A DNA stretch of 64,000 nucleotides from Campylobacterota bacterium. Lineage in GTDB: Bacteria > Bdellovibrionota > Bacteriovoracia > Bacteriovoracales > Bacteriovoracaceae. The position numbers were made by a program, and so were the translations under genes. The DNA lies in contig QNFX01000001.1 of NCBI GenBank assembly GCA_003650125.1, forward strand, positions 62,001-126,000, given 5' to 3'. Of this stretch, positions 19,195 through 47,484 are shown one piece after another (within the stretch, counting starts at the first letter, position 1; every line of letters begins with the position of its first letter). The notes beneath the pieces are model-generated. The model was not told the DNA's origin. It ran no database searches and worked only from the letters and a program-made list of their open reading frames with translations.

Positions 19195-19863
19195 TTAAAA
19201 CTCTTTGAAACGATAGCCAATTCCTCTTATTGTTTCAAAATACTCATCAGAGGTCTTTTGTCTGAGCTGTAAAATATGGGTATCAACAGTTCTTGTGGAA
19301 GGATAGGTTTCATATCCCCAGATTTTATTTAATAATTCTTCTCGGGTAAAAGGTTTCCCTGGAGTCTCTGCAAGCAAAACCAATAACTCATACTCAAGTT
19401 TTGTCAGTTCTAATTTCTTTCCAAGATAAGTTACTTCTCTTTTTCCTTTATTAACCGAGATATCTCCAATATTGATAATATCTTTAAGCTCACTACTAAA
19501 ATTATTTTTTTCTCTCAATTGAACTCTTATTCGGGCGATTAGCTCTCTGGGTTCAAAAGGTTTAGTTAAGTAATCATTTGCTCCAGACTCAAGACCTATA
19601 ACCTTGTCTATAAGTTCAGTTCGAGCAGTTAACATTAATACTGGCAAGTGATTTCCTTTTTGTCGTATTTCCTTTAAATAATCTAGACCTTGTCCATCAG
19701 GAAGCATCCAATCTAAAATGACGATTTTAAAATCTTTTAAATTTTGTTCTTTGGCATCTTTAATCGTAGGGCAAAGTTTAACACTGTAACGTTCTCCCTT
19801 AAGATATTTTTCTAGTGATAACCCTAGATTTTCATCATCTTCTATTAATAAAATATCATTCAT
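19195..19863 (-). CDS. OmpR/PhoB-family response regulator
   Basis: A 222 aa transcription factor: a receiver domain (LIEDDENLG acidic pair, phosphoacceptor Asp in ILDWMLPDGQG at about residue 51, the Lys in YLTKPFEPREL) and a winged-helix DNA-binding domain (FTREELLNKIWGYETYPSTRTVDTHI). It is the partner of the sensor kinase immediately upstream, whose stop shares the TAATG overlap with this start. Its target genes are not visible, but the ABC exporter upstream is an obvious candidate. Confidence 0.94.
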   Translation of the reverse strand: MNDILLIEDDENLGLSLEKYLKGERYSVKLCPTIKDAKEQNLKDFKIVILDWMLPDGQGLDYLKEIRQKGNHLPVLMLTARTELIDKVIGLESGANDYLTKPFEPRELIARIRVQLREKNNFSSELKDIINIGDISVNKGKREVTYLGKKLELTKLEYELLVLLAETPGKPFTREELLNKIWGYETYPSTRTVDTHILQLRQKTSDEYFETIRGIGYRFKEF

Positions 19864-31300: not shown

Positions 31301-31381
31301 CTAATAACTTTAATACTTATTCCTATGCTCTATCTGATCTTAATTGATATTAAAAACTTTGGCGCGTCCAAACTATCTTAG
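28325..31381 (+). CDS. RND superfamily efflux transporter inner-membrane subunit
   Basis: A 1018 aa AcrB/CusA-like proton-driven pump with twelve predicted helices and two large periplasmic loops. The N-terminal helix (about 14-31), the central proton-relay GILVDDAIILSES in helix 4 and the second-half VGLSGIVVNDSLVMVHTID are all present. It starts at a TTG with AAGGGAAAG upstream. No membrane-fusion protein or TolC-type channel is adjacent, so it may work with partners elsewhere, or belong to the group of single-subunit RND exporters. Its end overlaps nosL by 9 bases on the other strand. Confidence 0.93.
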   Translation: MDRITRFLTERPLMVNLLMITVLLLGFKTVIGIKKEGFPSISKNIISIQTFYPGASARDVEINVTMTIEEELEKVANLKEVLSTSSEGMSIITIVADDDVDDAQFKQIYDDVGEKLASISNLPSGVDGKPSYRQWTSDEMPVLEIAISGDYKKLRKFIPYLYTEIKRISGVSEVVKVGFPDEEYQIVVDMEKAKKNYLDLQSIANTLKARNIEGSGGTLESYIGEKKIVAYNKYKSLDEVLDTNLRRTYTGSGVRLKDIAEIKRVPENLNLTVRNSGKRGVSLMVKKKGNSDLLNTLDKIHSFLNNVSVPVGIKVITLNDQSKFTRNRLKLLTSNALMGIALVVVLLTLILGRRTAFWTAFSIPFSILGMFIFLPGMDLTLNAMTLGGMVLVLGILVDDAIILSESVDRAKEEGHSGADAVVLAVKQVWKPILGASLTTMVAFWPLSQLGGLPGKFIWIIPVIVALSLVASLIDTFFVLPVHLMHGKTVEKKEKRFVKKLEKMHKNSLDFLKNYRYVVLFTFIMLLASAGFIAKNYVKTDPFPQDSAEGFTIQLTLPAGTSLELAQDQIKVIEKEISALPPAELDGFSVRIGTHAQDTTIERGTDPHLAIIFIYLKTYIERTRTAQEISSSLREKILPFLKDKKIEALFELTRVGPPLGRAFEIRVASEEDRPRTAKVEEIKSYLRTVKGVLEIEDDNIPGKIELDLKLNFDKLAEMGGTVAGALSTIRIAFDGQVVTDIIEHNVPIDFRLRLNRKGRSDRDFVNSLSLINKKGYLINFDHFSTFEEKDSQSEIFHVNNRRTTTIFGQLDKDIISPGKLMDLVKENFPSSYQVPISYSGEPVENEKIFGNMKLAFITAIIGIFLVIAIILNSISKPFIVLSAIPFAVVGIIYTVFAFSMPLSIFIMMGVVGLSGIVVNDSLVMVHTIDRIIGEKGFSTNAVIEGAVRRLRPVLLTTFTTVMGLLPTGYAIGGYDPFIAPMCLAMAYGLLFATLITLILIPMLYLILIDIKNFGASKLS

Positions 31382-31795
31382 TGGACGATTGACCTTATAA
31401 ACTTTTAGTAGGGTTTCAAAGGTTATGCTTTCTTTAGTGCGGGTAGGAATGGCGATATATCCATAATTCATAGGAGTTGAGGCCTGAGCTTTAATCCAAA
31501 AAGAGGTCTTGGCATCCAACCACTCTGGCCTTTCAAAATTTTTAATATAGTATTTTTCAATTTTAATATTGGGATTGGTTTCGGCCCAATCAAGAGCACA
31601 GCCAAAATCATCAAACTTGTATACGTTGAAATGATCGTCGATAAGTTCAGCTGCGAAGCGCTCATCGCTAATAATCATATGACAATGGACGCAAGTATCC
31701 CGATCGAGAGTAATTTCAACCGGCCTCAAGCTTTTGCCATTGGTGCAAGACAAAAGAAACAGCATCATTAGGCATGAAGATATTTTAAAAGTCAT
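31373..31795 (-). CDS. nosL: NosL copper-chaperone lipoprotein
   Basis: A 140 aa lipoprotein (signal MTFKISSCLMMLFLLSC, lipobox LLSC) of the NosL family, which delivers Cu(I) to maturing nitrous oxide reductase. The metal motif is RDTCVHCHMIISDERFAAEL. The following KFDDFGCALDW is also typical. It is transcribed away from nosZ with about 147 bases between, a region containing an Fnr-like palindrome, so both could answer to one regulator. Confidence 0.9.
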   Translation of the reverse strand: MTFKISSCLMMLFLLSCTNGKSLRPVEITLDRDTCVHCHMIISDERFAAELIDDHFNVYKFDDFGCALDWAETNPNIKIEKYYIKNFERPEWLDAKTSFWIKAQASTPMNYGYIAIPTRTKESITFETLLKVYKVNRPLR

Positions 31796-31849
31796 GTGAT
31801 ACAACTACCTTCAATCTTTTTAATTTGCAAAAGGTAAAACACCTGTTTT

Positions 31850-31863
31850 ATGATATTTATCAT
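31850..31863. promoter_or_regulatory. Fnr/Dnr-like palindrome between nosL and nosZ
   Basis: ATGATATTTATCAT is a perfect inverted repeat with four spacer bases (TGAT-N4-ATCA core), the pattern bound by the Crp/Fnr family (Fnr consensus TTGAT-N4-ATCAA). It is 80-93 bases before the nosZ start; a weak -10 such as TATATG near 31890-31895 would place the site close to -41, the position for activation. A similar palindrome is found at 42815. Regulator identity is inference. Confidence 0.6.
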
Positions 31864-31942
31864 CTTTTTTCTATAAACACTGTGTCTCTTATATGCGAAA
31901 ATGTTTTTTTCAAAAATTACTAAAAACTCCCTGGAGGTAAAT

Positions 31943-33877
31943 GTGCTCAATTTTATTTTGAGAAAGAGGCAATTAGGTCTTGCGTTACTTGTTAGTTTGT
32001 TGGCCTTTTCTGGCTCAGCAGAAACCTTAAAAGAAGTTGCTAAAAAAAGAGGTCTAACTGACAAAGATTTGTTGGCCGCAGCTAAAACTTATACTCCTTC
32101 AGGAAAAAAGGATGAGTATCTTGTCTTTTCTTCAGGGGGCCAGGCGGGGCAACTAATTGTTTATGGTGTTCCATCCATGCGTCTTTTAAAATATATCGGA
32201 GTTTTTACACCTGAGCCATGGTCTGGTTACGGATATGGCGAAGTCGAAGGTATGCATAGACTTAAAGAGGGAATGATTCGAGGAACCAAGATTACTTGGG
32301 GAGACACTCACCATCCCGCTCTTTCGGAAACAAATGGTGATTATGACGGCCAGTTTGTTTTTATTAATGACAAGGCAAACCCGAGGGTCGCGGTAATTGA
32401 TTTAAAGACATTTGAAACGGTTCAAATTGTTGTCAATCCTATTTTTAAATCAGAGCATGGAAGTTCCGTGGTAACTCCAAATACAGAATATGCCATGGAA
32501 GCCGCTCAATATCCTGCGCCGTATTCTAATAAGTATGTTGCTCTAACCCAGAAAAATTTTAATGAAATATATCGTGGTGGAATAACCTATTGGAAATTTA
32601 ATCGAGAAAAAGGCCGCTTAATGCCTAAGCAGTCCTTTACTGTTGAACTACCACCGTACATGCAAGACATTACTGATGCTGGTAAATTGATAAGTGATGG
32701 CTGGAGTTTTACCAATTCAATCAACACTGAAAGATATATTGGTGGATTTGGTAATGGTAACACTCATTTAAAACATAAACTGGCCAATGAAGCGGGTATG
32801 TCAGCGAAAGATACGGACTACATGCATATAGTTAATTGGAGAAAAGCTGAAAAGTTATTTAAGGCCGGAAAATTTAAAAAGATTAACGGACACGCTGTTA
32901 TTTCAATGAAAGATATGGTTAAGGCCAATGCCTTATTTCTTCTTCCAGAATCAAAAAGTCCTCATGGTTGTGATGTTAGTCCAGATGGCCGATATATTAT
33001 CGTAGCAGGAAAGCTCGATACTCACGCAACAGTTTACGACTTCAAAAAAATTAAAAGGTTAATCGATAAAAAGGATTTTGCGGGAAAAGATCCCTACGGT
33101 ATTCCAATCTTGGATATGCAAAAATCTATTCACAAGCAAGTTCAACTGGGACTTGGGCCACTTCACTCACAGTTTGATAAGGAAAAAGGAATTGTTTACA
33201 CCTCCTTATATGTAGATTCCGCTGTTGCCCGTTGGGATTACTTAAAAGGAAAGCTTTTAGAGAAACTTCCTATTCATTACAATATTGGACATTTGGTTAC
33301 CGCCGAAGGTGATACGGTAAATCCTGATGGGAAATATCTCATTGCTTTAAATAAGCTAGCTATTGATAGGTTTAATCAGGTTGGGCCGTTGCATCCGCAA
33401 AATCATCAATTAATTGATATTAAAGGTAAAAAACCCATGTCACTTTTGTATGATATGCCTCTTCCGCTTGGGGAACCACATTATGCTCAAATGATTAAGG
33501 CCGATAAATTAAAACCTGTAATTCGCTACAAAAAACGAAGCTTTAAAAACTATGTAAGACCTGGAAAAGAAAGAGTTGAGAGAAAAGGAAATAAGGTAAC
33601 AATCCACTCAACTGCAATTCGAAGTCACTATAGTCCGGAAGTTATTAGTATTAAAAAGGGAGATCACGTTACTTGGCATATTACCAACGTTGAAAGAGCG
33701 CAGGATCAGACTCATGGATTTACCGTTGATACTTACAACTTACATGCCAGTATTGAACCAGGTGAAACAGTTACTTTAAAATTTGTTGCTACCAAATCTG
33801 GGGTTTTCCCATTTTATTGTACAGAATTTTGCTCGGCCCTTCACTTAGAAATGTCTGGGTATCTGTTAGTTAAATAA
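31943..33877 (+). CDS. nosZ: Nitrous oxide reductase, Sec-dependent clade II
   Basis: A 644 aa periplasmic enzyme that reduces N2O to N2. The GTG at 31943 follows GGAGG. The signal is of Sec type (hydrophobic core LGLALLVSLLAFSGSA) and lacks a twin-arginine motif, which defines clade II. The seven-bladed propeller holds the CuZ histidines (GDTHHPA near residue 124, SEHGSSV, SPHGCD, GPLHSQF, NIGHL). The C-terminal cupredoxin domain has the CuA set FYCTEFCSALHLEMSG. It heads the rightward nos arm and has no fused C-terminal haem domain, unlike the epsilonproteobacterial form. Confidence 0.97.
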   Translation: MLNFILRKRQLGLALLVSLLAFSGSAETLKEVAKKRGLTDKDLLAAAKTYTPSGKKDEYLVFSSGGQAGQLIVYGVPSMRLLKYIGVFTPEPWSGYGYGEVEGMHRLKEGMIRGTKITWGDTHHPALSETNGDYDGQFVFINDKANPRVAVIDLKTFETVQIVVNPIFKSEHGSSVVTPNTEYAMEAAQYPAPYSNKYVALTQKNFNEIYRGGITYWKFNREKGRLMPKQSFTVELPPYMQDITDAGKLISDGWSFTNSINTERYIGGFGNGNTHLKHKLANEAGMSAKDTDYMHIVNWRKAEKLFKAGKFKKINGHAVISMKDMVKANALFLLPESKSPHGCDVSPDGRYIIVAGKLDTHATVYDFKKIKRLIDKKDFAGKDPYGIPILDMQKSIHKQVQLGLGPLHSQFDKEKGIVYTSLYVDSAVARWDYLKGKLLEKLPIHYNIGHLVTAEGDTVNPDGKYLIALNKLAIDRFNQVGPLHPQNHQLIDIKGKKPMSLLYDMPLPLGEPHYAQMIKADKLKPVIRYKKRSFKNYVRPGKERVERKGNKVTIHSTAIRSHYSPEVISIKKGDHVTWHITNVERAQDQTHGFTVDTYNLHASIEPGETVTLKFVATKSGVFPFYCTEFCSALHLEMSGYLLVK

Positions 33878-34416: not shown

Positions 34417-34827
34417 GTGCTTAAATTATTAGTTTTATTTTTTACGACTACGGCCTTATTGCCATCGTCTGCTGTAAAAGCGGCCGATGGTAAATCCTTG
34501 TATCGATCCCTAACTTGCATCGCTTGCCACGGAAAAGAAGGACGGGGAAAAGTTAGGCGAAGAGATAGAATTAATAAGAAAACGGGTAAATACAAGTATC
34601 GCAAAGGGGATCCCATGAGTGGATTTAAAGATTACCCAAAGCTTTCTTGTCAGCATGCAAAATACTTGGTTGCCCAAATGAACGACATCTTTAGTGGTGC
34701 TCGCAAAGGCGGAAAAACCAAGGCCATGCATGGTGTTCGCGATATGGTTTTAAGTACGGCAAAACCAGGTGACTTTGAAGCAATCGCCGACTATCTATCA
34801 AAAGTACGTCCTTGCGGACAGGAGTAA
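34417..34827 (+). CDS. Mono-haem c-type cytochrome (NosC-like)
   Basis: A 136 aa periplasmic cytochrome starting at a GTG two bases after the previous stop. The signal peptide ends near VKAA; one haem site is SLTCIACHGKEGRGK and the likely axial methionine is in KAMHGVRDM. An extra basic insert (KVRRRDRINKKTGKYKYRKG) follows the haem motif. Clade II nos clusters commonly include such a mono-haem plus a di-haem cytochrome to pass electrons to NosZ, as in Wolinella; the assignment rests on this context. Confidence 0.88.
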   Translation: MLKLLVLFFTTTALLPSSAVKAADGKSLYRSLTCIACHGKEGRGKVRRRDRINKKTGKYKYRKGDPMSGFKDYPKLSCQHAKYLVAQMNDIFSGARKGGKTKAMHGVRDMVLSTAKPGDFEAIADYLSKVRPCGQE

Positions 34828-34829
34828 TA

Positions 34830-35531
34830 ATGAGTTTTAAAAAATTATCTATTTTTATTTTATTTTTTAGTTTTTCAGCTTTTTCTGATAGCCCAAAAGA
34901 CTTCAAAGGCGCTTGGGGTACAAAAGAAAAAGAGGCCTTAGATGCCTTAAAGCTTAAAGGAAATCTAAAACGGGGTTTTACTATTTATGATGAAATCTGT
35001 GCCAATTGTCACCAGCCTGAAGGATGGGGAGATCCCGCTGGGAACTTTCCCCAACTTGCCGGGCAACACTCAACTGTAGTTATTAAGCAGATTGCTGATA
35101 TTCGCGCGGGAAATAGAGATAATCCCACCATGTATCCATTTGCCAATCCTACGGCCCTAAAAGAACAAACCGATGACCTTTTTGACGAGCCTATAAGTGG
35201 CGCCCAGACCTTGGCCGATGTTGCCGCTTATATTCAAACCTTAAAGATGAGCATGAAAACTAAAAAGGGTGATGGTAAGGACTTAAAGCATGGTGCAAAG
35301 CTCTACAAGAATAATTGTGTAAAATGTCATGGTGATCACGGAGAAGGAATGGCAGATAAATATTATCCTGTTATAGCCTCGCAAAATTATGACTACCTAA
35401 TGAGACAGTTTAAATGGATTAAAGCGGGAAAAAGAAGAAATGCCAATCCTGACATGATCAAACAAATTAAAGGTTTTAGTGAGAAAGATATGAAGGCGGT
35501 ATTAGATTATGTTTCAAGGCAAAAGAAATAA
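34830..35531 (+). CDS. Di-haem c-type cytochrome (NosC-like)
   Basis: A 233 aa periplasmic protein with signal peptide (LSIFILFFSFSAFS) and two cytochrome c domains: EICANCHQPEGWGDPAG and NNCVKCHGDHGEGMAD. Each domain has its own likely methionine axial ligand (NPTMYPFANP and, in the second, NPDMIKQI). The overall layout resembles cytochrome c4. The start at 34830 lies just after the previous stop. It probably relays electrons from the quinol oxidation side to NosZ. Confidence 0.88.
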   Translation: MSFKKLSIFILFFSFSAFSDSPKDFKGAWGTKEKEALDALKLKGNLKRGFTIYDEICANCHQPEGWGDPAGNFPQLAGQHSTVVIKQIADIRAGNRDNPTMYPFANPTALKEQTDDLFDEPISGAQTLADVAAYIQTLKMSMKTKKGDGKDLKHGAKLYKNNCVKCHGDHGEGMADKYYPVIASQNYDYLMRQFKWIKAGKRRNANPDMIKQIKGFSEKDMKAVLDYVSRQKK

Positions 35532-36343
35532 TGCAAATTAAATCAAGACTGTTAATCAGTAAAATCTTGGTAATACTGGCCATCGCTCTATACTGCGGGA
35601 CTTATCTACTAGGGCCAATGTTTGCCTATATGGACCCTATTACTGATGAGGTGGAGTTTGACGAAGATAATTTATCTTTTCAACCGCTACCTTTTTTAGT
35701 TGAAAAAGGGACTGAAACCAGACCGAGCCCGCAAGATATTAAAAAATATATAGGCCCTACTCAATTTGAGTATTTCCCGGAGGGAATATGGGGCTATGTA
35801 ATTGGTTACCATACCATGCCCATTTGGCGAGTCTCATTGGAGGCCCCACAATATCCTAAGGCCTCATACCCTCAGGGAATTCCTGTTTATTTCACCTTAA
35901 CCGATTTTCGCGGCAAGGTCGTAGAGATGAATGTTATCAATCACTACATCGGTATGGATCCAATGGATATAGGAGCTTTCAAAATGCGCCAATTAGCGCC
36001 CTTCTTGGTTTTGATTGCAGTTTTGTGTCTAATAATTTCTCTTTTTTATGAGGGTAAAGGATGGTGGATCTTAACCTTGGCACCAGCAACATTCCCTTGG
36101 GTTTACATGGGAACTTATATCTATTGGCTGTACTGGTTTGGACATAATTTACATCCTTATGGGGCCTTTACCATTAAACCATTTATGCCAACGGTTCTTG
36201 GAACAGGAAAAGTGGCCCAGTTTCACACTTACTCATATCCCGCAGCTGGCTTTTACTTTTTGTTTATTGCTTTTTTATTTTTAGTACTAGCGACCCTGAT
36301 AAAAAGAAGAGCATTAAAAGAAAAATCCGTTGCTCTAATATGA
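35531..36343 (+). CDS. NosB-like inner-membrane protein, copy 1
   Basis: A 270 aa protein with one N-terminal helix (about 8-28), a periplasmic region of about 120 residues, and three C-terminal helices. The periplasmic region holds VIGYHTMPIWRVSLE and VYFTLTDFRGKVVEMNVINH, with NHYIGMDPMD just before helix 2. Its position between the cytochromes and nosD matches nosB, a membrane protein restricted to clade II clusters whose role is unknown. A clear paralogue is encoded at 39109-39846. The start overlaps the cytochrome stop (TAATG). Confidence 0.78.
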   Translation: MQIKSRLLISKILVILAIALYCGTYLLGPMFAYMDPITDEVEFDEDNLSFQPLPFLVEKGTETRPSPQDIKKYIGPTQFEYFPEGIWGYVIGYHTMPIWRVSLEAPQYPKASYPQGIPVYFTLTDFRGKVVEMNVINHYIGMDPMDIGAFKMRQLAPFLVLIAVLCLIISLFYEGKGWWILTLAPATFPWVYMGTYIYWLYWFGHNLHPYGAFTIKPFMPTVLGTGKVAQFHTYSYPAAGFYFLFIAFLFLVLATLIKRRALKEKSVALI

Positions 36344-37635
36344 AACCTTTTCTCATTTTAATTTTGCTTGGTTTTTCTTTTCAGGCAAGTTGTAAAACAC
36401 TTCAAAAACTTATTGACTCTACAGCTATTGGCGGCACCTTGCTTTTAAGTGGTGTCTATAAAGAGCGAGTAGTGGTGAATAAATCAATTACCATCGATGG
36501 ACAAAATAAGACGACCATTGATGGGCTTGGAAAAAATAGTGTTATTTCTATAACCGCAGATAATGTGACAATAAAAAACTTAAAAATCACAAACTCTGGG
36601 AATAGCCATGACCAAATCGATTCAGCTATTTTTGTAACCTCGTCATATAATAAGATTACTCACAATGTTATTTACAACACGCTTTTTGGGATAAACTTCA
36701 AGGAGGCCCACCATAACAGAGTTACCCATAATGATATTTCTTCAAAAAAACATACTCTTGGAATGCGAGGAGATGGAATAAAGGTTTGGGCATCTAATAA
36801 TAATCTTTTCGAGAGTAATGTCATTCACGATTCCCGTGACATGGTTTTATGGTATTCCGATAATAATACTGTCTTAAATAATACTGGTTGGAACAATCGC
36901 TACTCTTTGCACTTTATGTATGCCGGGAATAATCTTGTCAGGGGAAATAAATACAAAAATAGCGCAGTTGGAATATTTTTAATGTATTCTCATCACACAG
37001 TTTTAGAAAGCAACGAGCTTAGTTTTTCTACCGGTGGCACCGGCATGGGGATTGGTGTAAAAGAAGTCGATCACATGACCATAAAAAACAATAAAATCGT
37101 TTATAACAGCACCGGTATTTATCTTGATCAATCACCTTACAAACCAGATGCATATAATCTTATTGTGGGCAATACCATCGCCTTTAATAAATCTGGCGTT
37201 GTGATTCATAGCACGATAAAAAATAATGTTTTTAGAGGTAATGCTTTTTTAGATAACTTAGAAGATGTTATTGTTCACTCAAATGGGACGGCAAATGATA
37301 ACTTTTGGTCCGGAAATTTCTGGTCAGCTTACGAGGGGCTTGATCGAAACCGTGATGGATATGGTGATCGTCCCTTTATAAATAAACGCTATATTGATCA
37401 GATATGGATTAATGACAAATGGGGGAAGTTTTTCTTTGGTTCCCCAGTTTTAAGTCTACTTAATCTGCTTGCAAAGATTGCTCCGCTTTCAGAACCAATT
37501 TTGATTTTAAAAGATGAAAAACCAATATTTTCAAAAAACTCTACCCTACGCCTTTCTATTGAAAATATAACACTAAGGCGTAGTGACATTGAAATAGATG
37601 AAGAGATTGAAGAAGAAGATGCTGAGGGTATATAG
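36340..37635 (+). CDS. nosD: NosD periplasmic copper-insertion protein
   Basis: A 431 aa exported protein with right-handed parallel beta-helix (CASH) repeats, for example NNNLFESNVIHDSRDMVLWY and NNTVLNNTGWNNRYSLHFMY. The NosD C-terminal signature NFWSAYEGLDRNRDGYGD is present. NosD works with the ABC transporter NosFY to assemble the CuZ site of NosZ. It ends in a very acidic tail (IDEEIEEEDAEG). The start overlaps the preceding stop by four bases. Confidence 0.94.
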   Translation: MKPFLILILLGFSFQASCKTLQKLIDSTAIGGTLLLSGVYKERVVVNKSITIDGQNKTTIDGLGKNSVISITADNVTIKNLKITNSGNSHDQIDSAIFVTSSYNKITHNVIYNTLFGINFKEAHHNRVTHNDISSKKHTLGMRGDGIKVWASNNNLFESNVIHDSRDMVLWYSDNNTVLNNTGWNNRYSLHFMYAGNNLVRGNKYKNSAVGIFLMYSHHTVLESNELSFSTGGTGMGIGVKEVDHMTIKNNKIVYNSTGIYLDQSPYKPDAYNLIVGNTIAFNKSGVVIHSTIKNNVFRGNAFLDNLEDVIVHSNGTANDNFWSGNFWSAYEGLDRNRDGYGDRPFINKRYIDQIWINDKWGKFFFGSPVLSLLNLLAKIAPLSEPILILKDEKPIFSKNSTLRLSIENITLRRSDIEIDEEIEEEDAEGI

Positions 37636-38288
37636 TGATTTCAATTAAAAATGTAGGAAAAAAATTTGGCAAGGCCAAAATATTAAATAATTGCTCACTA
37701 TCTTTTAAAGATGGTGATCGAGTGGCAATCGTTGGCGGCAATGGTGCGGGAAAGACAACCCTTCTTCGTTGCCTTTTAGGCCACTATATTTACAGCGGGA
37801 AAATTACAGTATTTGGTATGGACGCCAGAAAAAAGAGAGAGGAAGTTTTGCAAAAAGTTGGTTTTGTACCGCAACTTCCCCCACCTATTCAAATGACCAT
37901 TAGCGAACTTATTAATTTCTCCATTGCCATAACAGACGATTTATCTAAAGAAGATATTTACAGTGTCGCCAAAGATTTACATTTTGATATTGGAGGTAAT
38001 CTTTCAAAACCTTTTTCAAAATTATCAGGTGGGATGAAGCAAAAGATGTTAATAGCACTAGCACTTGCTAAAAAACCAAGTCTTCTCGTTTTAGACGAGC
38101 CGGCGGCAAATTTAGATCCCTACGGTAGAGAAATATTTTTTAAAAGAATAGCTAAGATCCCCAAAGAAACTATTGTCATTTTAACCAGTCATAGGATTAA
38201 AGAAGTTCATGATTTAGTTAATAGAGTCGTGGAAATGGATTGTGGGCATATTGTGAAACAGGTTCGGATGGAAGGTGGTGAAGAGTGA
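37635..38288 (+). CDS. nosF: NosF ABC transporter ATPase
   Basis: A 217 aa ATPase starting at a GTG that overlaps the nosD stop. Walker A is GGNGAGKTTLLRCLLG, the signature is KLSGGMKQKMLIALALAKKP, Walker B is LLVLDEPAANLDP. It powers NosY; together they assist NosD in maturing the copper centre. It is slightly shorter than the about 300 aa NosF of denitrifiers, which is usual in clade II clusters. Confidence 0.92.
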   Translation: MISIKNVGKKFGKAKILNNCSLSFKDGDRVAIVGGNGAGKTTLLRCLLGHYIYSGKITVFGMDARKKREEVLQKVGFVPQLPPPIQMTISELINFSIAITDDLSKEDIYSVAKDLHFDIGGNLSKPFSKLSGGMKQKMLIALALAKKPSLLVLDEPAANLDPYGREIFFKRIAKIPKETIVILTSHRIKEVHDLVNRVVEMDCGHIVKQVRMEGGEE

Positions 38289-39112
38289 AGCGTTTAACAT
38301 CTGTAATATATTCTGAAATGAGAGAGTCCATGAGGGCAAAGTGGTTTCTCCTTTATAGTTTGGTTTTTGGCGGGGCCATAATACTACTTTTTTCTTTTGG
38401 TATTACAGAATCTCAAGTACTCGGATTTGCCGGTGTCGACCGGGTTTTAATCGTTTATATCCAACTGTGTATAGTAATTCTTCCTATTTTTATTTTGATT
38501 TCAACTGTTCGCTCGGTAGTTGGAGATAAAGAAACTTCTGTCTTGGAGTACTTTTTGTCTATGCCAGTTTCTTTGTTCTCATATTTTTGGGGGAAGTTTT
38601 TAGGTAAACTGCTTGTGGTCTTTATTCCTACAATGTTTGCTTTTTTGGCCGCACTCCTTTGGGGTCTGGTGAAAGATTTACACGTTTCTTGGCCTATCGT
38701 TGGCTACTATATTGCGCTTTTATTTTCTATCGTTATATGTTTTTTGGGCCTTGGAATGTTTATTTCAAGTATTGCAAAAAAAGTAGAGTGGGCACTGGGC
38801 CTGGCCTTTTTATCGTGGCTGACCTTGTTGCTTTTTATCGATGTTATAATGATAGGGCTCATGTTAAAACATCAAATTGAAGAATCCATAATTATTGGAA
38901 TAACCCTTTTAAATCCTCTTCAAGTTTTTAGAGTGGCCTCGATCATTCTTTTTGACCCACAAGGCAGTATTCTTGGGCCTTCATCATTTGTTATTTTGGA
39001 TTTTTTCGGACGGGAAAATTTTCTTTTATTTTCTCTTGCCTACCCTGTCCTTATTGGACTTGTGCTGGCCACTTCTGGTTATTATCTCTTTAAAAAAGGT
39101 GATTTGGTTTAG
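38285..39112 (+). CDS. nosY: NosY ABC transporter permease
   Basis: A 275 aa protein with six predicted helices. The cytoplasmic coupling helix contains RSVVGDKETSVLEYFLSMPVSL, as in other NosY proteins. The GTG start overlaps the nosF stop, so both are co-translated. It is the last gene of the rightward arm and overlaps the end of the convergent NosB-like copy 2 by four bases. Confidence 0.92.
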   Translation: MKRLTSVIYSEMRESMRAKWFLLYSLVFGGAIILLFSFGITESQVLGFAGVDRVLIVYIQLCIVILPIFILISTVRSVVGDKETSVLEYFLSMPVSLFSYFWGKFLGKLLVVFIPTMFAFLAALLWGLVKDLHVSWPIVGYYIALLFSIVICFLGLGMFISSIAKKVEWALGLAFLSWLTLLLFIDVIMIGLMLKHQIEESIIIGITLLNPLQVFRVASIILFDPQGSILGPSSFVILDFFGRENFLLFSLAYPVLIGLVLATSGYYLFKKGDLV

Positions 39113-39846
39113 CGCTTTTGTCTTCTTAAAAAGATAGAGCTACCCATTAAAATTAGCTGCAATAAAAACAAGTAAAAACCAATTCCAGGGTATCCGGTTA
39201 ACTCAACATTTTTAAGCTTTACCGTTCCAAATATTAAAGGATTGAAGGAGTCCAACTTATACACAGCATGTTCGCTAAAGGTAGAGCTAAATTGCATGCC
39301 AACAAGTAATGCTATTACTGGAATATAAATGATCATAAGGGATGGGACCAAGCCTATCATCCAATCATATTTACCTCTTCGAAAAATATAAATCAAAAGA
39401 AGGATAGTAAAAAATAAAAAGATAAAAGGTATCATTTTTCTAATACCAGGAGCAATCGTTTCAAGCGGGGCCAGCCCAACATAGTGATTTAGAACATTAA
39501 TTTCCGCTACGGCGCCCTTTAAATCCGTTAGGCAAAAATAAAGTTTCGCTCCCTCTGGCATTTGAACCATCTTAAGGTCAAACTGCCAAAAAGGAAGGGT
39601 ATGAAATCCGATGAGGTAGGCCTTAATTCCTCTTGGGATGTAATAGTAGAGCTTATCACCGAGGGCCTCCTTGACTACGCCCTTGGTTGGAACAGATTCG
39701 ATACCTTCTGGAATAAGAAAGGAAAAAGGTTGAAAAGTGCGGTTACTTTCTTCGTCGTTGCCAAGATAAGTTAAGGTATTTCCGAGAAAATAGGTCGCTA
39801 GAAAGAGGAGCAGAGAAATGATGGCAAATACTTTACTTAGTTTCAT
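39109..39846 (-). CDS. NosB-like inner-membrane protein, copy 2
   Basis: A 245 aa paralogue of the protein at 35531: it shares FQPFSFLIPEGIES with FQPLPFLVEKGTET, LIGFHTLPFWQFDL with VIGYHTMPIWRVSL, LYFCLTDLKGAVAEINVLNH with VYFTLTDFRGKVVEMNVINH, and NHYVGLAP with NHYIGMDP. The same plan applies: one N-terminal helix, a periplasmic region and three C-terminal helices. It is the last gene of the leftward nosG-nosH arm, with four bases of overlap to nosH. Its function is unknown; the conserved histidine and glycine residues could bind copper or contact a partner, which is inference. Confidence 0.78.
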   Translation of the reverse strand: MKLSKVFAIISLLLFLATYFLGNTLTYLGNDEESNRTFQPFSFLIPEGIESVPTKGVVKEALGDKLYYYIPRGIKAYLIGFHTLPFWQFDLKMVQMPEGAKLYFCLTDLKGAVAEINVLNHYVGLAPLETIAPGIRKMIPFIFLFFTILLLIYIFRRGKYDWMIGLVPSLMIIYIPVIALLVGMQFSSTFSEHAVYKLDSFNPLIFGTVKLKNVELTGYPGIGFYLFLLQLILMGSSIFLRRQKR

Positions 39847-40697
39847 ATTAACTTATCAAGATATTTAATTTCAAATCCAAGGGCGGCATCATTGCAAGCG
39901 TCGACACAAAGTCCACAGCGGGTACATTCTCCGGAGTCCACATATTCGACAATACCTTTATTTACCGCATCTATTAAAACAAAGGGTACTACGCAGACTT
40001 TTTGACATTCTTTGCAATTGGTACAATTTTCTGGTTTCCATTTTATTTTAACCGGTGAGAACTTTCCTAAAATAATATAAGGAACGGCAACGGGGCATAG
40101 ATACCGACACCACCCTCTTTTACTTATAAGAATCTCAAGACCCAACATAGAAGCAATAAAGAAAAGGGCAACACTAGGGCCAAAAACGATTGCTCTAGAT
40201 AGTCCACCTACGGGGTTAAAAATTTCAAAACCGGTATATCCTGTGATTAGTGATAAAAATAAACTCACAAAGAAAAAATAGTACTTAGTTTCTCGTCCAT
40301 AGGTTTGATTGCCTAGTTTTATAAGGCCATGCTTCCTAACAAACTTATGAAAAAACCCTGCTATTTCTGAAAGAAGTCCGTAAGGACAAACCCAGGCGCA
40401 AAAGGATCTTCCCCCAATTAATAGATATAAAAAACCAATAGTTAAAAGACCAATAATTAAATTCGTTTTGACAATTTTACTGGCCAGCATGACTTGAAAA
40501 GAAGCGTAAGGGTCGGCAAGATGTAATCCTAAAAATCTTGAAGCACTTAAAGTTCCCTCAAGGATTTGTATATCAAAATAATAAGAGGCAAAAAAGAAGA
40601 AGTTAATACCGACAACGGTACTCCAGCGCAGGACTCTCCATTTGTAGGGATATTTATTTTCGTCAATCGAGACAGCTCTAAGTCCTGGACCTTTCAT
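39843..40697 (-). CDS. nosH: NosH/NapH-type membrane ferredoxin quinol oxidoreductase subunit
   Basis: A 284 aa protein with about five membrane helices and the NapH pattern: CAWVCPYGLLSE and CRYLCPVAVPY on cytoplasmic loops, then two [4Fe-4S] clusters, CTNCKECQKVCVVP and CTRCGLCVDAC. It is thought to take electrons from menaquinol and pass them to NosG and on to the periplasm. AAGGAAAAAG precedes the ATG at 40697; a longer frame to 40757 overlaps nosG and is rejected. It overlaps the nosG stop by four bases. Confidence 0.9.
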   Translation of the reverse strand: MKGPGLRAVSIDENKYPYKWRVLRWSTVVGINFFFFASYYFDIQILEGTLSASRFLGLHLADPYASFQVMLASKIVKTNLIIGLLTIGFLYLLIGGRSFCAWVCPYGLLSEIAGFFHKFVRKHGLIKLGNQTYGRETKYYFFFVSLFLSLITGYTGFEIFNPVGGLSRAIVFGPSVALFFIASMLGLEILISKRGWCRYLCPVAVPYIILGKFSPVKIKWKPENCTNCKECQKVCVVPFVLIDAVNKGIVEYVDSGECTRCGLCVDACNDAALGFEIKYLDKLI

Positions 40698-41557
40698 ACT
40701 TTTTCCTTGTACGTGAGTCTTGGAATAATCGTAATACAAGAATCTTCTGTAGGGCATTCCATTTCACATACACCACATCCAACGCAGCTTTCTTGAAAAA
40801 CTGGAATATGTGCAGCTGATGTCTTTGAAAAAACAATCGGTTTTTCTTCTTTGATTGGGCATTTGTCTAAACATATTCGACAAGAGGTTTCTGCCTGCTT
40901 AGAATTTTTAACCAGATCTTTAAACCAATTAAAGTCTGACTCACTTTGCATTTGAGAAGAAACCAATTTAGCATTAACTTCATTTATATCTGAGAGTTTT
41001 TCAATATTAAATTTTTCCAGCAAAGCCTTTTTTTCAAGGTCATCCATCCTAGGTAAAAATTCTGAAATGATCTTTATCCGATCTTCTTTTGTTTTTAAGT
41101 TTTCAAGGCCAAAAACAATATCGTTAACGGATTTTGTCGCTAAACAAGTTTTAGGAGATCTTAATACCGCCAGACCCATTTCTGCTTCTTTACCCTCTGT
41201 TATATCGTGATCGAGAGCTCCTGTGGGGCAGGCCAAGACACAAGGAAGTCCCTTACATAAAAGACAGGCACCTTCTCTAGGCGTAAGATAAGGAGTTCCA
41301 ATGGCAAAACCTTTACTTAGGCCAGCGAGATCTAAAATTTGGGGAGGACAGACCTGAACACATTGTCCACATTTAATACAAGAAGCTAAAAAAGTCGATT
41401 CATCAAGTGCCCCCGGAGGACGTAGTAATTCGGTATCATCGGCCCTAAATACATACTGGCTGGCCCCTCCGACAGTGATTGTGCCGGCAACAAAACTTAA
41501 GGTTGATCCTTTTAAAAAGCTTCGCCTTGATAGAGGTGATTTTTTCTTTTTATTCAT
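40694..41557 (-). CDS. nosG: NosG/NapG-type periplasmic polyferredoxin
   Basis: A 287 aa protein with a twin-arginine signal (SRRSFLKGS) and four [4Fe-4S] cluster motifs: CIKCGQCVQVCPP, CLLCKGLPCVLACP, CRICLDKCP and CVGCGVCEMECP. It is the NapG-like partner of NosH that moves electrons from the quinol-oxidising complex to periplasmic cytochromes. The ATG at 41557 is chosen; an ATG at 41584 is in frame. A helical insert (about residues 150-200) separates the second and third clusters. Confidence 0.9.
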   Translation of the reverse strand: MNKKKKSPLSRRSFLKGSTLSFVAGTITVGGASQYVFRADDTELLRPPGALDESTFLASCIKCGQCVQVCPPQILDLAGLSKGFAIGTPYLTPREGACLLCKGLPCVLACPTGALDHDITEGKEAEMGLAVLRSPKTCLATKSVNDIVFGLENLKTKEDRIKIISEFLPRMDDLEKKALLEKFNIEKLSDINEVNAKLVSSQMQSESDFNWFKDLVKNSKQAETSCRICLDKCPIKEEKPIVFSKTSAAHIPVFQESCVGCGVCEMECPTEDSCITIIPRLTYKEKV

Positions 41558-41638
41558 ATTTTTCTTAATAACTTTATACATCATATTGAATAAAAACTAA
41601 AGAAATCACCTGGAAACAAAAATGTTTCTATTAAGTAT

Positions 41639-42775
41639 TTATTTTTTAAATAGTACATAGGTGTATTTAAATAGATAAATAACAAAACCTAGCGTCCAAA
41701 AACCGGAGGCCCAATGCAAAGAATTCCAATAATATTCTGGGACTAAAAGCGGAATTAAAACCCGTGTAAGGGCGCCTATATTTACACATATAAAAGCGGC
41801 CTGATCCCAACCATCTGCCATCATCTTAAGAGAACTATGTCCTCTTGTTACCCGTACCATCATGCCAATAGAAAAGACCCCAAGAGCTCCCGTAGCAAGA
41901 GCGTGAAGGGAAAGTTGAGAGTAGTCTAAATCTGGATAAATAGTTGTAAGTAAATAAAGCAACAGACCCAAATTCACCCATAAAAATCCTGAATGCAAAA
42001 TGGCCAGCATCGGTTCTTTTAACGCTTGAAATGGTTTCCAAAAATAAAAACGGATAAGGTTGCTAAAAATGGCCAAAAATAAAATAGTGGCCGTAACAAA
42101 ACTTGGAACTATTTCTCCAACGAGAAAGATCAAAAGAATATGGGATCCGAGAGAAAGATAATGGGCCCAAGCAGGCTCCTTTATCTCAATTTGTAATTTA
42201 ACTTTGGAAAAAAAAGGAACCAACCTACCTGAAAAGATCACAATCAATAAAACAATTGAAAATATCCCCCCGTGTATTCCCATCCGATAGAGAAGGTCAT
42301 GGGAACTAAAATCGCCAACTAAAAGAAAAAATTTAAAGAGAAAAAACAAAAATAAAATAGGAATAACCGCTTTGAAATTCTTGGAATTCCCCCTGAGTAT
42401 GTGACCCATAAAAAATAAAAAAAGGAGGGAAAATAAAGCACTCGTACCCAATGCAACTGAGATAGGCACTGGGAGTAAATAAAAAATCCTTTCTAGCATC
42501 CAAAGCGCCATTAAAGAAAATAGCCTGTATCCAGTAAAAGGGTCTTTTTTAGTCCATACGGCACTAGCGGTGAATAAAAATCCGGCCAGAAGTGAGCTGG
42601 TGAACCCAAAAATCATCTCGTGTGCGTGCCAAACAAGATTTGTAGAAAACAAGGTTTCTAAATCTAAATGTCCTGTAAAAATAGATACCCAAAGAGTAGG
42701 GATGGCCACCGCCATAATTGCGGTAAAAAAGAAAAATGGCCTAAAGGGGGCCGATAAAAAAGCCGATTTTGTCAT
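41639..42775 (-). CDS. NnrS-like NO-related membrane protein
   Basis: A 378 aa protein with about twelve helices and the family motif SAPFRPFFFFTAI at the start, then HAHEMIFGFTSSLLAGFLFTAS. NnrS proteins bind haem and copper and protect cells against nitric oxide; they are regulated with denitrification genes. The gene is the first of a leftward run (nnrS, nosG, nosH, NosB-like) and is divergent from the PFOR gene. The ATG has no strong ribosome site. Confidence 0.85.
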   Translation of the reverse strand: MTKSAFLSAPFRPFFFFTAIMAVAIPTLWVSIFTGHLDLETLFSTNLVWHAHEMIFGFTSSLLAGFLFTASAVWTKKDPFTGYRLFSLMALWMLERIFYLLPVPISVALGTSALFSLLFLFFMGHILRGNSKNFKAVIPILFLFFLFKFFLLVGDFSSHDLLYRMGIHGGIFSIVLLIVIFSGRLVPFFSKVKLQIEIKEPAWAHYLSLGSHILLIFLVGEIVPSFVTATILFLAIFSNLIRFYFWKPFQALKEPMLAILHSGFLWVNLGLLLYLLTTIYPDLDYSQLSLHALATGALGVFSIGMMVRVTRGHSSLKMMADGWDQAAFICVNIGALTRVLIPLLVPEYYWNSLHWASGFWTLGFVIYLFKYTYVLFKK

Positions 42776-42814: not shown

Positions 42815-42828
42815 ATGACCCATGTCAT
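42815..42828. promoter_or_regulatory. Fnr/Dnr-like palindrome between nnrS and the PFOR gene
   Basis: ATGACCCATGTCAT is a perfect inverted repeat with TGAC-N4-GTCA half sites, like the Dnr/Nnr form of the Crp/Fnr box. It lies 40 bases from the nnrS start and 76-89 bases from the PFOR start. A third half-like element (GGTCAT) follows at 42832-42837. Its partner is the palindrome at 31850, which has the same ATGA-N6-TCAT frame. Confidence 0.6.
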
Positions 42829-42903: not shown

Positions 42904-45900
42904 ATGAAACGACCAAAATATCCAGGTCACCGTGTAACAATCAATGGAAATCAATTAGTTGCTCTTACGGAAGCGAGAATTGCGGACTGCGGTGTCTTTT
43001 ACCCCATTACCCCGAGTACCGAGATGGGGGAATATTTTGAACTATCAGTGTCACAGGGAACCCAAACAGTTTGGGGAGATCAGGTTAAGGCCATCGAGGC
43101 CGAAGGTGAACATGCCGCTCAAGGTGGTGCCACTGCCATTTCTGTTACTGGAAAAAGGGTGGCGAATTTCACTTCAGGACAAGGAATTGTCTATGCCCTG
43201 GAACAATATTTTCATGCTCCAGGAAAGCTTTCCACCATGGTTTTAAATGTGGGAGCGAGGGCACTTACTAAACATGCCCTTAATGTTCATTGTGGCCATG
43301 ATGATATTATGAGTGCCTTAAATACTGGTTGGACCATGCTTATGGCCAAAGACGCTCAACAGGCCGTCGATCAATCTATAATCTCTCGAAAAGTTGCCGA
43401 GCTTACTTTAACCCCGGTAATGAATATTCAAGATGGATTTTTAACTACGCATTTAGAGCGAACTTTCCGTGTTCCAGAATCAGAACTTTTAAGAGATTAC
43501 TTGGGACATCCGGAAGACACTATTGATTGCCCCACTAAAGGACAAAAAGAATTATTTGGTAAAAAACGAAGAAGAATTCCCAAGATGTATAGTCTCAACA
43601 CTCCAATTCTTTTAGGTTCAGTTCAAAATCAAGAACACTATATGACTGGAGTTATTGCTAGACGAACTGAATTTGTCGAAGACATTCTTAGCATCCTCGA
43701 AAGATGTTATAAGGAATTTGCGGAACTTACCGGTAGAGAGTATGGACTAATTTCAAAATACAACTGTGAAAAGGCCGATACGGTATTTTTAACTCTTGGT
43801 TCAAGTGCTGAAAATATAGAACCTGCGATCGATTATATCAAAGAGAAACATAACGATGAAATTGGCATCATCCATTTAAATTGCATCAGACCTTTCCCCG
43901 AAAAAGCGATAATTGAAGCTTTAAAGGGAAAGAAAAATGTCATTATATTAGAGCGAACTGATGAGCCTCATGCCGGGTCTAATCCCCTCGCCAGAGATGT
44001 TAGAACTGCCTTATCTAAGGCCTTGGAAAAATCTTATCCTGATCTTCCCCAAATAGATGAAAAAGATATGCCTAGAATTTTTGAAGGGGTTTATGGACTC
44101 GGTTCAAGAGATTTTAGACCGGAGCATGTTTTAGGTGCCTATGAATATGTGAGAGGAAAAATTTCTCGACAAGATGGAAAAAAAGCGTCCGATGGATCTA
44201 GCTTTTTCTACCTCGGGGTTAATCATGACTATGCAATTATCTCGAAAGATCAACCTAGCCTTCTACCTGAAAGTGCTATTGCCGTGCGGATTCACTCCAT
44301 CGGGGGATGGGGGGCCATTACAACGGGAAAAAACATGGCCGAGATTTTAGGGAATTTGGCCAAAGTTTCCAAACATAAAAAAAGTGAGGATGATCCAGTC
44401 ATTCATATCAGTGCTAATCCAAAATATGGATCAGAAAAAAAGGGTGCACCTACCAATTACTTTTTAGTAGTCGCTAGAGACAGAGTTAGGGTTAATTGCG
44501 ATCTTCATCATGTGGATGTAGTCCTTTGTTGTGATCCTAAAATATTCACCCACACCAACCCCCTCTTTGGACTTCGACCTGGTGGATCTTTTATCTGGGA
44601 GTCCAACAAGAGTGAAAAAGAAGTCTGGGAGCGCATACCTCCAAAATATCGAAAACAAATTATCGACAACGATATAAAAATTTATACTCTTAATGGTTTT
44701 GAAATCGCCAAGGCAGCGACTTCAAATGAATCTTTACAAACCAGAATGCAGGGAAATAGTTTTCTTGGAGCATTTTTTAAAGTTTCACCTTTTTTAGATG
44801 ATCATGGGATTGATCCAAAACACTATCAAGAAACTGTTCAAAAACAATACGAAAAGAAGTTTGGTAAATTTGGTGAGGATGTTGTTGCCTCAAATATGAT
44901 GGTTATGGAAAAAGGGTATTCAAACATCAAAGAAATTAAATTTGGTGAGTTAGGTGCCGATGATCACTCCCCTCTTATAGGACATATTCTAAAACCTCTC
45001 AATTTTGATAGTACTCCAACCACGACAGAATCAAGTTCTTGCCCAGTATTTTCTTACGATGAATATAAAGAACAATTTTTAACTGGAGATATAAATAACC
45101 AAAAGGCCACAGCGCTCACTTCCACGGGAATAATGCCCTCAGGAACCGGTGCCCAAATGTCTAAGTATGTCTCAAGAATAAAAGTTCCCATAATTGATCC
45201 TTATAAATGTACTCAATGCATGGCCTGTATTGATGTCTGTCCAGATACCGCACTTCCAAATACCGCCCAAAGTGTTGATACGATTTTAACCAAGATATTT
45301 AAAGGTTATGTTACAGATGCCTCTGATCAAAAAGTCTTAGTAGGTATGGTAAAAGAAATGAGTTCCACCGTTCGTGATGGAATGAATCTGGCGATAAGTG
45401 AGAAAAATATCGTTCCATTTAATACCCTTCTTTTTAAAGAACTAGAAAGCAGTGGTGTAAAAGAAAATACCCTGACTGAAATCCGAAGTATCATTGATGA
45501 CCTTCCTTTAGGTTATGGTAAAGCTCGTGCCATCTATCAAGGAATCGAAAAAAAGAACCCTGGTGAAGGGGGACTCTTTACTATTTTTGTTAGTGATCTC
45601 TGTAAAGGATGTGCTGAATGTGTTGATGCCTGTGGTGATCATGAGGCCTTAACCATGGTAGAGGAAGATGTAGATCTTAGAGGCAAACACCTCACAGCTA
45701 GTTCATTTTTTGATACTCTCCCACGTACTCCAAAAAAATACCTAGGACTCTTTGACTCCGATAATATTGAAAACTCTAGAGCTGCTATTCTCCATAACCA
45801 TTTGATGATTCAAGATTACTATAAGTCTTTTGCTTCAGGTGATGGGGCCTGTGCTGGTTGTGGAGAAAAATCTGTTTTAAGAGGTGTGGTCACCATGACC

Positions 45901-47484
45901 GAGGCCTTAATGAGACCGCTTTGGGATCATAAAATAAAAAGAGTTTTAGCGCTGGCCGAAGCAATAGAGCTCAATGGCCTGCACGCTTTAAACAAAATTA
46001 AAGAAAAAAGTGAAGAGTCATATGAAAACATCAAAATTAGTATTCTTCACCTCATTATGGGATTTGGTGGCGAAGATCTTACCGAAACGGAAAAAAGAAT
46101 TGAAAATGAGTTTAAAGGTGAAGATAAGGACCTTATCGATGCTCTTATCCTTGTTTTAAAAACGGATGCTACCAATCATGAAAGGCCCTCCATTATAAAT
46201 GGTGAACACCAGGGAATGACTGTAATGGGAATGGCCGCCTCAACTGGCTGCAATACCGTTTATGGTTCTACCCATCCTTCTAACCCACACCTTTACCCTT
46301 GGATGAACTCACTTTTCCAAGATGGTGCTACGGTTGGTTGGCTTGTGGCCGAAAGCTTTATGATGGATCATGCTAGAAGATCTATTATCCCTGAGAGAAT
46401 CTCCAACATGATCTTAGATGGAATATCTGATTTTAACTCAGATAAATACTTAAAGTTGGCACACCTTGATGATTCGAATATGACCGATAAAGAGATTTTA
46501 GAACTCCCAAAAGTTTGGTGTATCGGAGGAGATGGTGCTTTTGGAGACATCGGATTTCAAAATGTCTCTAAGGTAGTCCTACAAAACAGACCAAATGTGC
46601 AACTTCTTATGCTTGATACCCAAGTGTATTCAAATACGGGGGGACAAAACTCTGATAGCTCCATCATGCCTGGTGGGTTTGATATGAACCAATACGGAAA
46701 ATACCATGAAGGAAAACTAACAGAAAGAAAAGAACTTGCACAAATTTTCACAAATGGACACGGTTCTCCTTATGTGGCCTGTGTCTCTATGGCCAATTCA
46801 GCAAAATATTTTAAGGCGGTTTTAGATGGACTTCTCTACCGAGGAACGGCCTTTATTCAATCCTTCACTTCTTGTCAGCCAGAGCATGGAGTCCCCGATG
46901 ATATGAGCCAAAAGCAAGCGCTAAGAATTCGAGATTCCAGGGGGGTTCCAGAGTTTACTTATAACCCTGCTTTGGGTGAAGCTGATTTTGAGGCCTTTGA
47001 TTTAAAATCTAATCCTCGCTATCAAAGAGACTGGCAAGTTAAAAAAGATGCTGACAAAAATGAATATGATTTTGATGTTGTCCAGTGGGCCTTCACAGAA
47101 GGAAGATTTAGAAAACATTTTTTCAAACTAAAACCAGAAGGTGAAAAAGTTTCTTTAAAAGAAATCCTATTAAGAATTACGCAAAATGATGTGACCCATA
47201 GAAGATATCTTGACCCCGGACATCGAAGTTTTACTCCCTTAAAAGGTGTCTATGTCGATATAGTTGATGGCAATGGCAAAAGAAAGAGAATGGGAATATC
47301 TCGACATTTAGTCCTCTTTTCTGTGGAAAGAAGAAAAAATTGGCGACGGCTTCAGTCAAAAATGGGTATCAAAAATAAAGATTACGAGACACAAAAGATA
47401 CTACTTAAAAAGATTGATGAGGGTGAAGAAAAACTCGCAGATATCTCCAAAGTGTACAAAAAAATACTCGCAGAAATGACTTAA
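42904..47484 (+). CDS. nifJ: Pyruvate:ferredoxin/flavodoxin oxidoreductase, extended form
   Basis: A 1526 aa enzyme that oxidises pyruvate (or a related 2-oxo acid) with CoA to acetyl-CoA, CO2 and low-potential electrons. In order: the N-terminal domain with FYPITPSTEMGEYFE, a transketolase-C-type domain, the gamma domain (IGGWGAITTGKNMAE), a ferredoxin domain with CTQCMACIDVCP (about residue 769) and CKGCAECVDACG (about residue 900), and the thiamine-diphosphate domain with GACAGCGEKS (about 982) and GDGAFGDIGFQNVSKV (about 1210). Classic forms have about 1170-1230 residues: the excess lies between the two clusters and inside the last domain. GAGGAG precedes the ATG. Confidence 0.9.
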   Translation: MKRPKYPGHRVTINGNQLVALTEARIADCGVFYPITPSTEMGEYFELSVSQGTQTVWGDQVKAIEAEGEHAAQGGATAISVTGKRVANFTSGQGIVYALEQYFHAPGKLSTMVLNVGARALTKHALNVHCGHDDIMSALNTGWTMLMAKDAQQAVDQSIISRKVAELTLTPVMNIQDGFLTTHLERTFRVPESELLRDYLGHPEDTIDCPTKGQKELFGKKRRRIPKMYSLNTPILLGSVQNQEHYMTGVIARRTEFVEDILSILERCYKEFAELTGREYGLISKYNCEKADTVFLTLGSSAENIEPAIDYIKEKHNDEIGIIHLNCIRPFPEKAIIEALKGKKNVIILERTDEPHAGSNPLARDVRTALSKALEKSYPDLPQIDEKDMPRIFEGVYGLGSRDFRPEHVLGAYEYVRGKISRQDGKKASDGSSFFYLGVNHDYAIISKDQPSLLPESAIAVRIHSIGGWGAITTGKNMAEILGNLAKVSKHKKSEDDPVIHISANPKYGSEKKGAPTNYFLVVARDRVRVNCDLHHVDVVLCCDPKIFTHTNPLFGLRPGGSFIWESNKSEKEVWERIPPKYRKQIIDNDIKIYTLNGFEIAKAATSNESLQTRMQGNSFLGAFFKVSPFLDDHGIDPKHYQETVQKQYEKKFGKFGEDVVASNMMVMEKGYSNIKEIKFGELGADDHSPLIGHILKPLNFDSTPTTTESSSCPVFSYDEYKEQFLTGDINNQKATALTSTGIMPSGTGAQMSKYVSRIKVPIIDPYKCTQCMACIDVCPDTALPNTAQSVDTILTKIFKGYVTDASDQKVLVGMVKEMSSTVRDGMNLAISEKNIVPFNTLLFKELESSGVKENTLTEIRSIIDDLPLGYGKARAIYQGIEKKNPGEGGLFTIFVSDLCKGCAECVDACGDHEALTMVEEDVDLRGKHLTASSFFDTLPRTPKKYLGLFDSDNIENSRAAILHNHLMIQDYYKSFASGDGACAGCGEKSVLRGVVTMTEALMRPLWDHKIKRVLALAEAIELNGLHALNKIKEKSEESYENIKISILHLIMGFGGEDLTETEKRIENEFKGEDKDLIDALILVLKTDATNHERPSIINGEHQGMTVMGMAASTGCNTVYGSTHPSNPHLYPWMNSLFQDGATVGWLVAESFMMDHARRSIIPERISNMILDGISDFNSDKYLKLAHLDDSNMTDKEILELPKVWCIGGDGAFGDIGFQNVSKVVLQNRPNVQLLMLDTQVYSNTGGQNSDSSIMPGGFDMNQYGKYHEGKLTERKELAQIFTNGHGSPYVACVSMANSAKYFKAVLDGLLYRGTAFIQSFTSCQPEHGVPDDMSQKQALRIRDSRGVPEFTYNPALGEADFEAFDLKSNPRYQRDWQVKKDADKNEYDFDVVQWAFTEGRFRKHFFKLKPEGEKVSLKEILLRITQNDVTHRRYLDPGHRSFTPLKGVYVDIVDGNGKRKRMGISRHLVLFSVERRKNWRRLQSKMGIKNKDYETQKILLKKIDEGEEKLADISKVYKKILAEMT

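Follow-up and report, generated by a model that had tools for sequence, protein, structure and literature searches.

Clade II nitrous oxide reductase clusters of the Wolinella type contain the gene nosB. According to the papers citing the work (PMC9697520, PMC11102522), W. succinogenes, the one organism tested, needs nosB for N2O respiration. LNHYIGM and YGHN were published as the signatures of NosB (PMC9697520), and four or six membrane helices were given as a criterion (PMC11388526). NosGH was described for Wolinella as a menaquinol dehydrogenase module resembling NapGH (PMC3475470). Here, a cluster with two nosB-derived genes, named nosB1 and nosB2, was analysed. A paper on these genes or on any duplicated nosB was not found in the literature searched, most subscription papers being outside the search.

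Composition of the nos cluster

The window, i.e. the whole 64 kb stretch of DNA analysed, contains a clade II nos cluster around nosB1 and nosB2 (Table 1). The host bacterium, which is kin of marine predatory bacteria, probably has the capacity for N2O respiration. On the plus strand the genes are arranged as nosZ-X172-cyc1-cyc2-nosB1-nosD-nosF-nosY, with nosL on the minus strand. The second arm, on the minus strand, has the order nnrS-nosG-nosH-nosB2, and nosG and nosH overlap by ATGA. An earlier note had placed two nosB-like reading frames at 35531-36343 and 39109-39846, and both were found there. It had also assigned the copies to the ends of both arms. This holds for nosB2, whose start overlaps the nosH stop and which is thus the last gene of its run. 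In contrast, the gene order places nosB1 within its arm.

Table 1 Features of the nos cluster (positions in the window)
Feature	Position	Strand	Evidence or remark
nosL	31373..31804	-	PF05573, E 1.4e-4, slightly under cut-off
Crp/Fnr-type palindrome ATGATATTTATCAT, 5' of nosZ	31850..31863	+	
nosZ, clade II Sec-dependent nitrous-oxide reductase	31901..33877	+	TIGR04246, 836.9 bits vs cut-off 625
X172, conserved protein of long-form nos clusters, 172 aa	33896..34414	+	
cyc1, monohaem cytochrome c, NosC-like position	34417..34827	+	PF00034, E 1.5e-8
cyc2, dihaem cytochrome c, immediately 5' of nosB1	34830..35531	+	PF00034 x2, E 1.9e-19
nosB1, orthodox long-subfamily NosB	35531..36343	+	270 aa, four predicted membrane helices
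NosB1 signature 1, NHYIGM, residues 137-142	35939..35956	+	(near-)invariant in surveyed NosB set
NosB1 signature 2, WLYWFGHNL, residues 199-207	36125..36151	+	conserved in surveyed set
nosD	36340..37635	+	TIGR04247, 362.7 bits
nosF, ABC ATPase	37635..38288	+	profile and place between nosD and nosY
nosY, ABC permease	38285..39112	+	3' end shares 4 nt with 3' end of nosB2
nosB2, fast-diverged paralogue of long NosB subfamily	39109..39846	-	245 aa, four predicted membrane helices
Place of signature 2 in NosB2, now VGMQFSSTF	39277..39303	-	alignment; motif lost
NosB2 signature 1, altered to NHYVGL, residues 120-125	39472..39489	-	sequence and alignment
ATGA overlap, nosH stop/nosB2 start	39843..39846	-	sequence; putative translational coupling
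nosH, NapH-like ferredoxin-type membrane protein	39843..40697	-	TIGR02163, E 1.1e-75
nosG, NapG-like ferredoxin-type protein	40694..41584	-	NF007012 E 1.1e-45, TIGR00397 E 1.5e-41, both under curated cut-offs
nnrS, first gene of nnrS-nosG-nosH-nosB2	41639..42775	-	PF05940, E 1.4e-78
Crp/Fnr-type palindrome ATGACCCATGTCAT, 5' of nnrS-nosG-nosH-nosB2	42815..42828	-	

The X172 protein, encoded between nosZ and the cytochrome genes, contains cysteine and is predicted to be secreted. It was present in every long-form nos cluster covering that region, with about 42-68% identity, and matched no Pfam family. One match to a cytochrome bc-type cytochrome b was detected in the host genome, so that the cytochromes may also be reached by a bc route.

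Exact ATGAYNNNNRTCAT palindromes occur only twice in the 64 kb, before nosZ and before nnrS-nosG-nosH-nosB2. The pattern was written after both promoter sites had been seen, and two matches were reached in 5/100 shuffles. The core TGAY-N4-RTCA was also located near the nosL-nosZ junction in the relatives L048 and L044. Canonical FNR sites (TTGA-N6-TCAA) were not enriched, and none was found at the nos promoters. A large gene resembling pyruvate:ferredoxin oxidoreductase (42904-47484) is divergent from nnrS, and a Crp/Fnr-like palindrome lies in the intergenic region common to both.

Two paralogous proteins of the NosB family

Both published signatures were identified in NosB1. The first, in the form [LI]NHYIGM, reads INHYIGM (residues 136-142), and the second appears as WFGHN, with an F in place of Y that was found in other NosBs too. 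The gene lies directly 5' of nosD in a cluster whose nosZ exceeds the TIGR04246 cut-off, and the predicted model of the protein (pLDDT 84.8) has four helices. NosB1 belongs to a long subfamily of about 270 aa, compared with about 190 aa for the short form, with ~65 added residues after helix 1. No model of Pfam or NCBIfam covers NosB; hence, a family name could not be taken from these databases. Relative rates were counted for 11 nos proteins of the host against those of a Bacteriovoracaceae relative; NosB1 and its orthologue were even, with 8 vs 9 unique changes. NosB1 is best read as an ordinary NosB and as the working copy of this genome, doing the essential NosB job.

NosB2 aligned with NosB1 along the full length (BLASTP, 33% identity, 53% positives, E 6e-48), in agreement with the earlier note, which had regarded the two as clear paralogues. 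The motifs FQP, G[YF]HT, LTD[FL][RK]G and NHY[IV]G, which it had listed as common, are present in both proteins. The common helix plan was likewise seen in both predicted models: each has four membrane helices, the first two of which are separated by a large domain. Tree building with 32 proteins placed NosB2 inside the long NosB clade (100/100) with an end branch of 3.4, compared with a median of 0.53. Together with the two signatures of NosB1, this agrees with the proposed membership of both proteins in the NosB family. Alignment and tree thus support true paralogues, NosB by descent, derived from a duplication. The AU test spoke weakly against an origin of NosB2 by recent duplication of NosB1 alone, i.e. 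as its sister (p 0.034), and rejected none of the alternative placements tried within the long clade. The exact place of NosB2 in this clade is left loose, because its branch is too long. Its identity to the long-form NosBs of SAR324-type clusters is only 28-38%.

The divergence also concerns the signatures. In NosB2 the first stretch is LNHYVGL, with V and L in place of I140 and M142 (NosB1 numbering here and below). At the second, FSST stands instead of YGHN, and W199, G204, H205 and L207 are gone. Since signature 2 is missing, the protein was filed as a NosB-derived paralogue and not as a NosB. Among the family-wide positions, P97, W99, Q107, G116, N137, H138, Y139 and G141 are retained; besides the four residues lost at signature 2, A105, P106, Y108 and M142 are replaced.

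Of the four common motifs only NHYxG is family-wide, and FQP and LTD are confined to the long subfamily. The histidine of GxHT varies even among NosB1 orthologues (GYKT, GYWT, GYRT, GYQT, GART). Since these residues vary, GxHT/LTD was discarded as a metal site, and the conserved His/Asp site suggested previously fails for both motifs. The conserved histidines of the family are located in NHYIGM and [YF]GHN, of which NosB2 retains the first only. With the motif list corrected in this way, the family-conserved candidates for mutation are H138 and H205 of NosB1, and also M142, Y108 and W199; the histidine of GxHT and the aspartate of LTD are not among them.

In the predicted models, both based on shallow alignments of 12 rows, the domain between helices 1 and 2 is a beta domain. 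The NosB2 model reached a pLDDT of 75.2, with the second loop poorly determined. Judging by the number of helices and by the basic termini, this domain and both signatures would be periplasmic. A Foldseek search of the PDB with NosB1 gave claudin-fold proteins, or complexes with them, for all 50 matches listed (TARPs, claudins, GARLH, DUOXA1); the E-values of 0.04 to 0.46 are not significant, and the TM-score on the target was up to 0.56. The matches of NosB2 were mostly of the claudin-fold class too, with lower scores. Sequence evidence for a claudin relationship was not obtained from Pfam or NCBIfam, and a sequence search of the PDB gave nothing usable. The likeness of the predicted folds weakly supports a role as an auxiliary subunit.

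Distribution in other genomes

Genomes were surveyed by phylum, and NosB was found in 19/369 (host genome included), 12/52, 15/294 and 2/4, i.e. in 48 genomes in total. Three of the 48 carry two copies, namely the host genome, G355 and G602. In G355 each copy adjoins its own nosZ, and in G602 the copies are on two contigs. Two NosBs in one cluster were seen only in the host genome, and no NosB2 was detected in any other genome of the survey. It is known from this one genome, a draft assembly.

All NosB relatives in 18 other genomes of the host phylum are located in or adjoining nos genes. The long form was identified in 12/52 genomes of the SAR324 group and in two further Bdellovibrionota genomes, with one NosB each and mostly the same neighbours. 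The closest orthologues of NosB1 were found in two MAGs, one of Bacteriovoracaceae (70%) and one of Bdellovibrionaceae (64%). The nearest relative shares the two-arm layout, inverted nosGH arm included, and its nosY and nosH ends are 2 bp apart; the second NosB is therefore absent there without trace. Draft genomes may miss genes elsewhere, but this junction is complete. The earlier note had suggested that each arm needs its own NosB. This is unsupported, because NosB2 is absent from the other surveyed genomes including this relative, and all of the long-form SAR324 genomes (12/12) have one NosB each. As one NosB suffices in close relatives, the second copy appears to be a local specialisation rather than a general requirement. 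A division of labour between NosB1 and NosB2 inside this one genome is possible.

One other member of the host genus was found to have no nosZ. NosB relatives were not detected on viral contigs, and plasmids carried short-form NosBs only. A ‘hypothetical protein’ of Thermomicrobium roseum, encoded between nosZ and nosD, was recognized as a NosB relative. In four loci from one genus of the host family (L027, L028, L029, L030) two tandem nosZ-like genes occur, with 32-36% and 51-53% identity to the host NosZ, and nosB stands at the distal end of the cluster, after nosY. NosB-NosL fusions with a single reading frame over both parts are encoded in other members of the phylum (L033, L036, L041). 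In L043 a nosZ-like gene (19481-20764) on the same strand as nosH was observed about 2.7 kb downstream of it, past the usual end of the cluster.

Possible role of NosB2 and comparison with known systems

The explanation we prefer, tentatively and with somewhat less than even confidence, is that NosB1 is the working NosB and that NosB2 would belong to the NosGH quinol-dehydrogenase arm as a specialised accessory subunit. NosB2 would have arisen by lineage-specific duplication of a long-form NosB and is now last in the nnrS-nosG-nosH run. In it the predicted fold and part of signature 1 are preserved, and signature 2 and its loop are gone. As a non-redox subunit it may dock on or stabilise the NosGH menaquinol-dehydrogenase module, with NosH as its putative partner. 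It could thereby help to present NosGH to the periplasmic cytochromes, and NosB1 would serve NosZ. In favour of this explanation are the homology and the long branch of NosB2 beside the even rate of NosB1, the overlap of the nosB2 start with the nosH stop, the signs of constraint on NosB2, the uneven rate of NosH, the two palindromes and, weakly, the claudin-type fold. It counts against this explanation that NosB2 comes from a single draft genome and that NosB in general may have a role in copper supply and not in electron transfer. In an extended form, which we consider unlikely, NosB2 was neofunctionalised as a dedicated NosGH subunit co-adapting with NosH. The loss of [YF]GHN would then separate a NosZ-side from a NosGH-side part, and the NosB family would be a claudin-like auxiliary and not a redox carrier. 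NosH alone of the 11 nos proteins was uneven in the relative-rate count (20 vs 6, p 0.009 uncorrected, about 0.10 corrected for 11 tests). Its changes are scattered along the protein; thus, the count gives no more than a hint of co-adaptation with NosB2.

NosB2 might instead pair with NosB1 in a heteromer, in which NosB1 provides the full signature set and NosB2 a structural half with signature 1 only. The two copies agree in fold class and in the long domain, NosB2 retains N137, H138, Y139 and G141 and has lost W199, G204 and H205, and a similar palindrome precedes both arms. A new partner might be expected to alter the rate of NosB1, which is unchanged in this lineage (8 vs 9), and one NosB suffices in the relatives; we regard the heteromer as unlikely. 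Decay of a duplicate that is still open by chance would be consistent with the very long branch of NosB2, with the loss of half of the invariant positions and with its occurrence in one genome only. However, neutral decay would normally have broken the frame, and the overlaps at both ends of nosB2 are tidy. The frame of 245 codons is intact despite the extreme divergence; for 244 random codons of the same base composition, the probability of containing no stop is 3e-7. Furthermore, NosB2 retained 35/73 columns invariant in the other long NosBs, compared with 42/197 variable ones (Fisher p 3e-5), and within the core retention was higher in the first half (17/28) than in the second (13/39). The intact frame and the preferential retention of conserved columns indicate that NosB2 has been under constraint, so that a relic is decidedly unlikely.

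Two further explanations start from the surrounding genes. Five SAR324 loci have, immediately after nosH, a gene for a membrane-anchored CXXCH protein of about 220 aa (L043 16819-17487, L046 9205-9891, L047 16381-17043, L049 16257-16937, L050 16214-16870), and no match to this protein was found in the host genome. NosB2 could have replaced it, anchoring a soluble cytochrome without carrying haem itself, and NosB-NosC2 fusions are mentioned in the literature (PMC11409646). We consider this quite improbable, as nosH of L048 is followed neither by such a gene nor by nosB2, and the CXXCH protein matches, weakly, a sensor-type Tll0287-like haem domain and may be regulatory. A general division of labour between the two arms would give each copy one of two tasks: NosB1 would act at NosZ, in copper insertion or in electron delivery, and NosB2 would take the remaining task in the NosGH arm. 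It would fit the operon membership of each copy. As a general rule it is contradicted by the single NosB of every long-form SAR324 cluster and by the relative with the same two arms, one NosB and no space for a second, and it appears very improbable.

Compared with the Wolinella-type clade II NosB, NosB1 is alike in its position between nosZ and nosD, in both published signatures, by which the two were compared, and in its four helices; it differs by the ~65 residues added after helix 1. NosB2 shares the fold plan and NHYxG, but is without signature 2, adjoins nosGH and is an extra copy. A natural paralogue that lacks one of two signatures and is coupled to nosH offers a handle for telling NosZ-side residues from those on the side of electron delivery. 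With the long-form NosBs of SAR324 (L043, L045-L047, L049, L050, L070-L075) NosB1 is orthologous at 45-63% identity, and with those of the Bdellovibrionota relatives L044 and L048 it shares 64-70%. The SAR324 clusters have a similar gene order around nosB with X172 and two cytochromes, and the long domain is present in NosB2 too; in contrast to the host cluster, theirs contain a single NosB. The NosB-NosL and NosB-NosC2 fusions of the literature show NosB tied to partners in copper supply or electron transfer, whereas NosB2 is encoded separately and at full length by a gene coupled to nosH.
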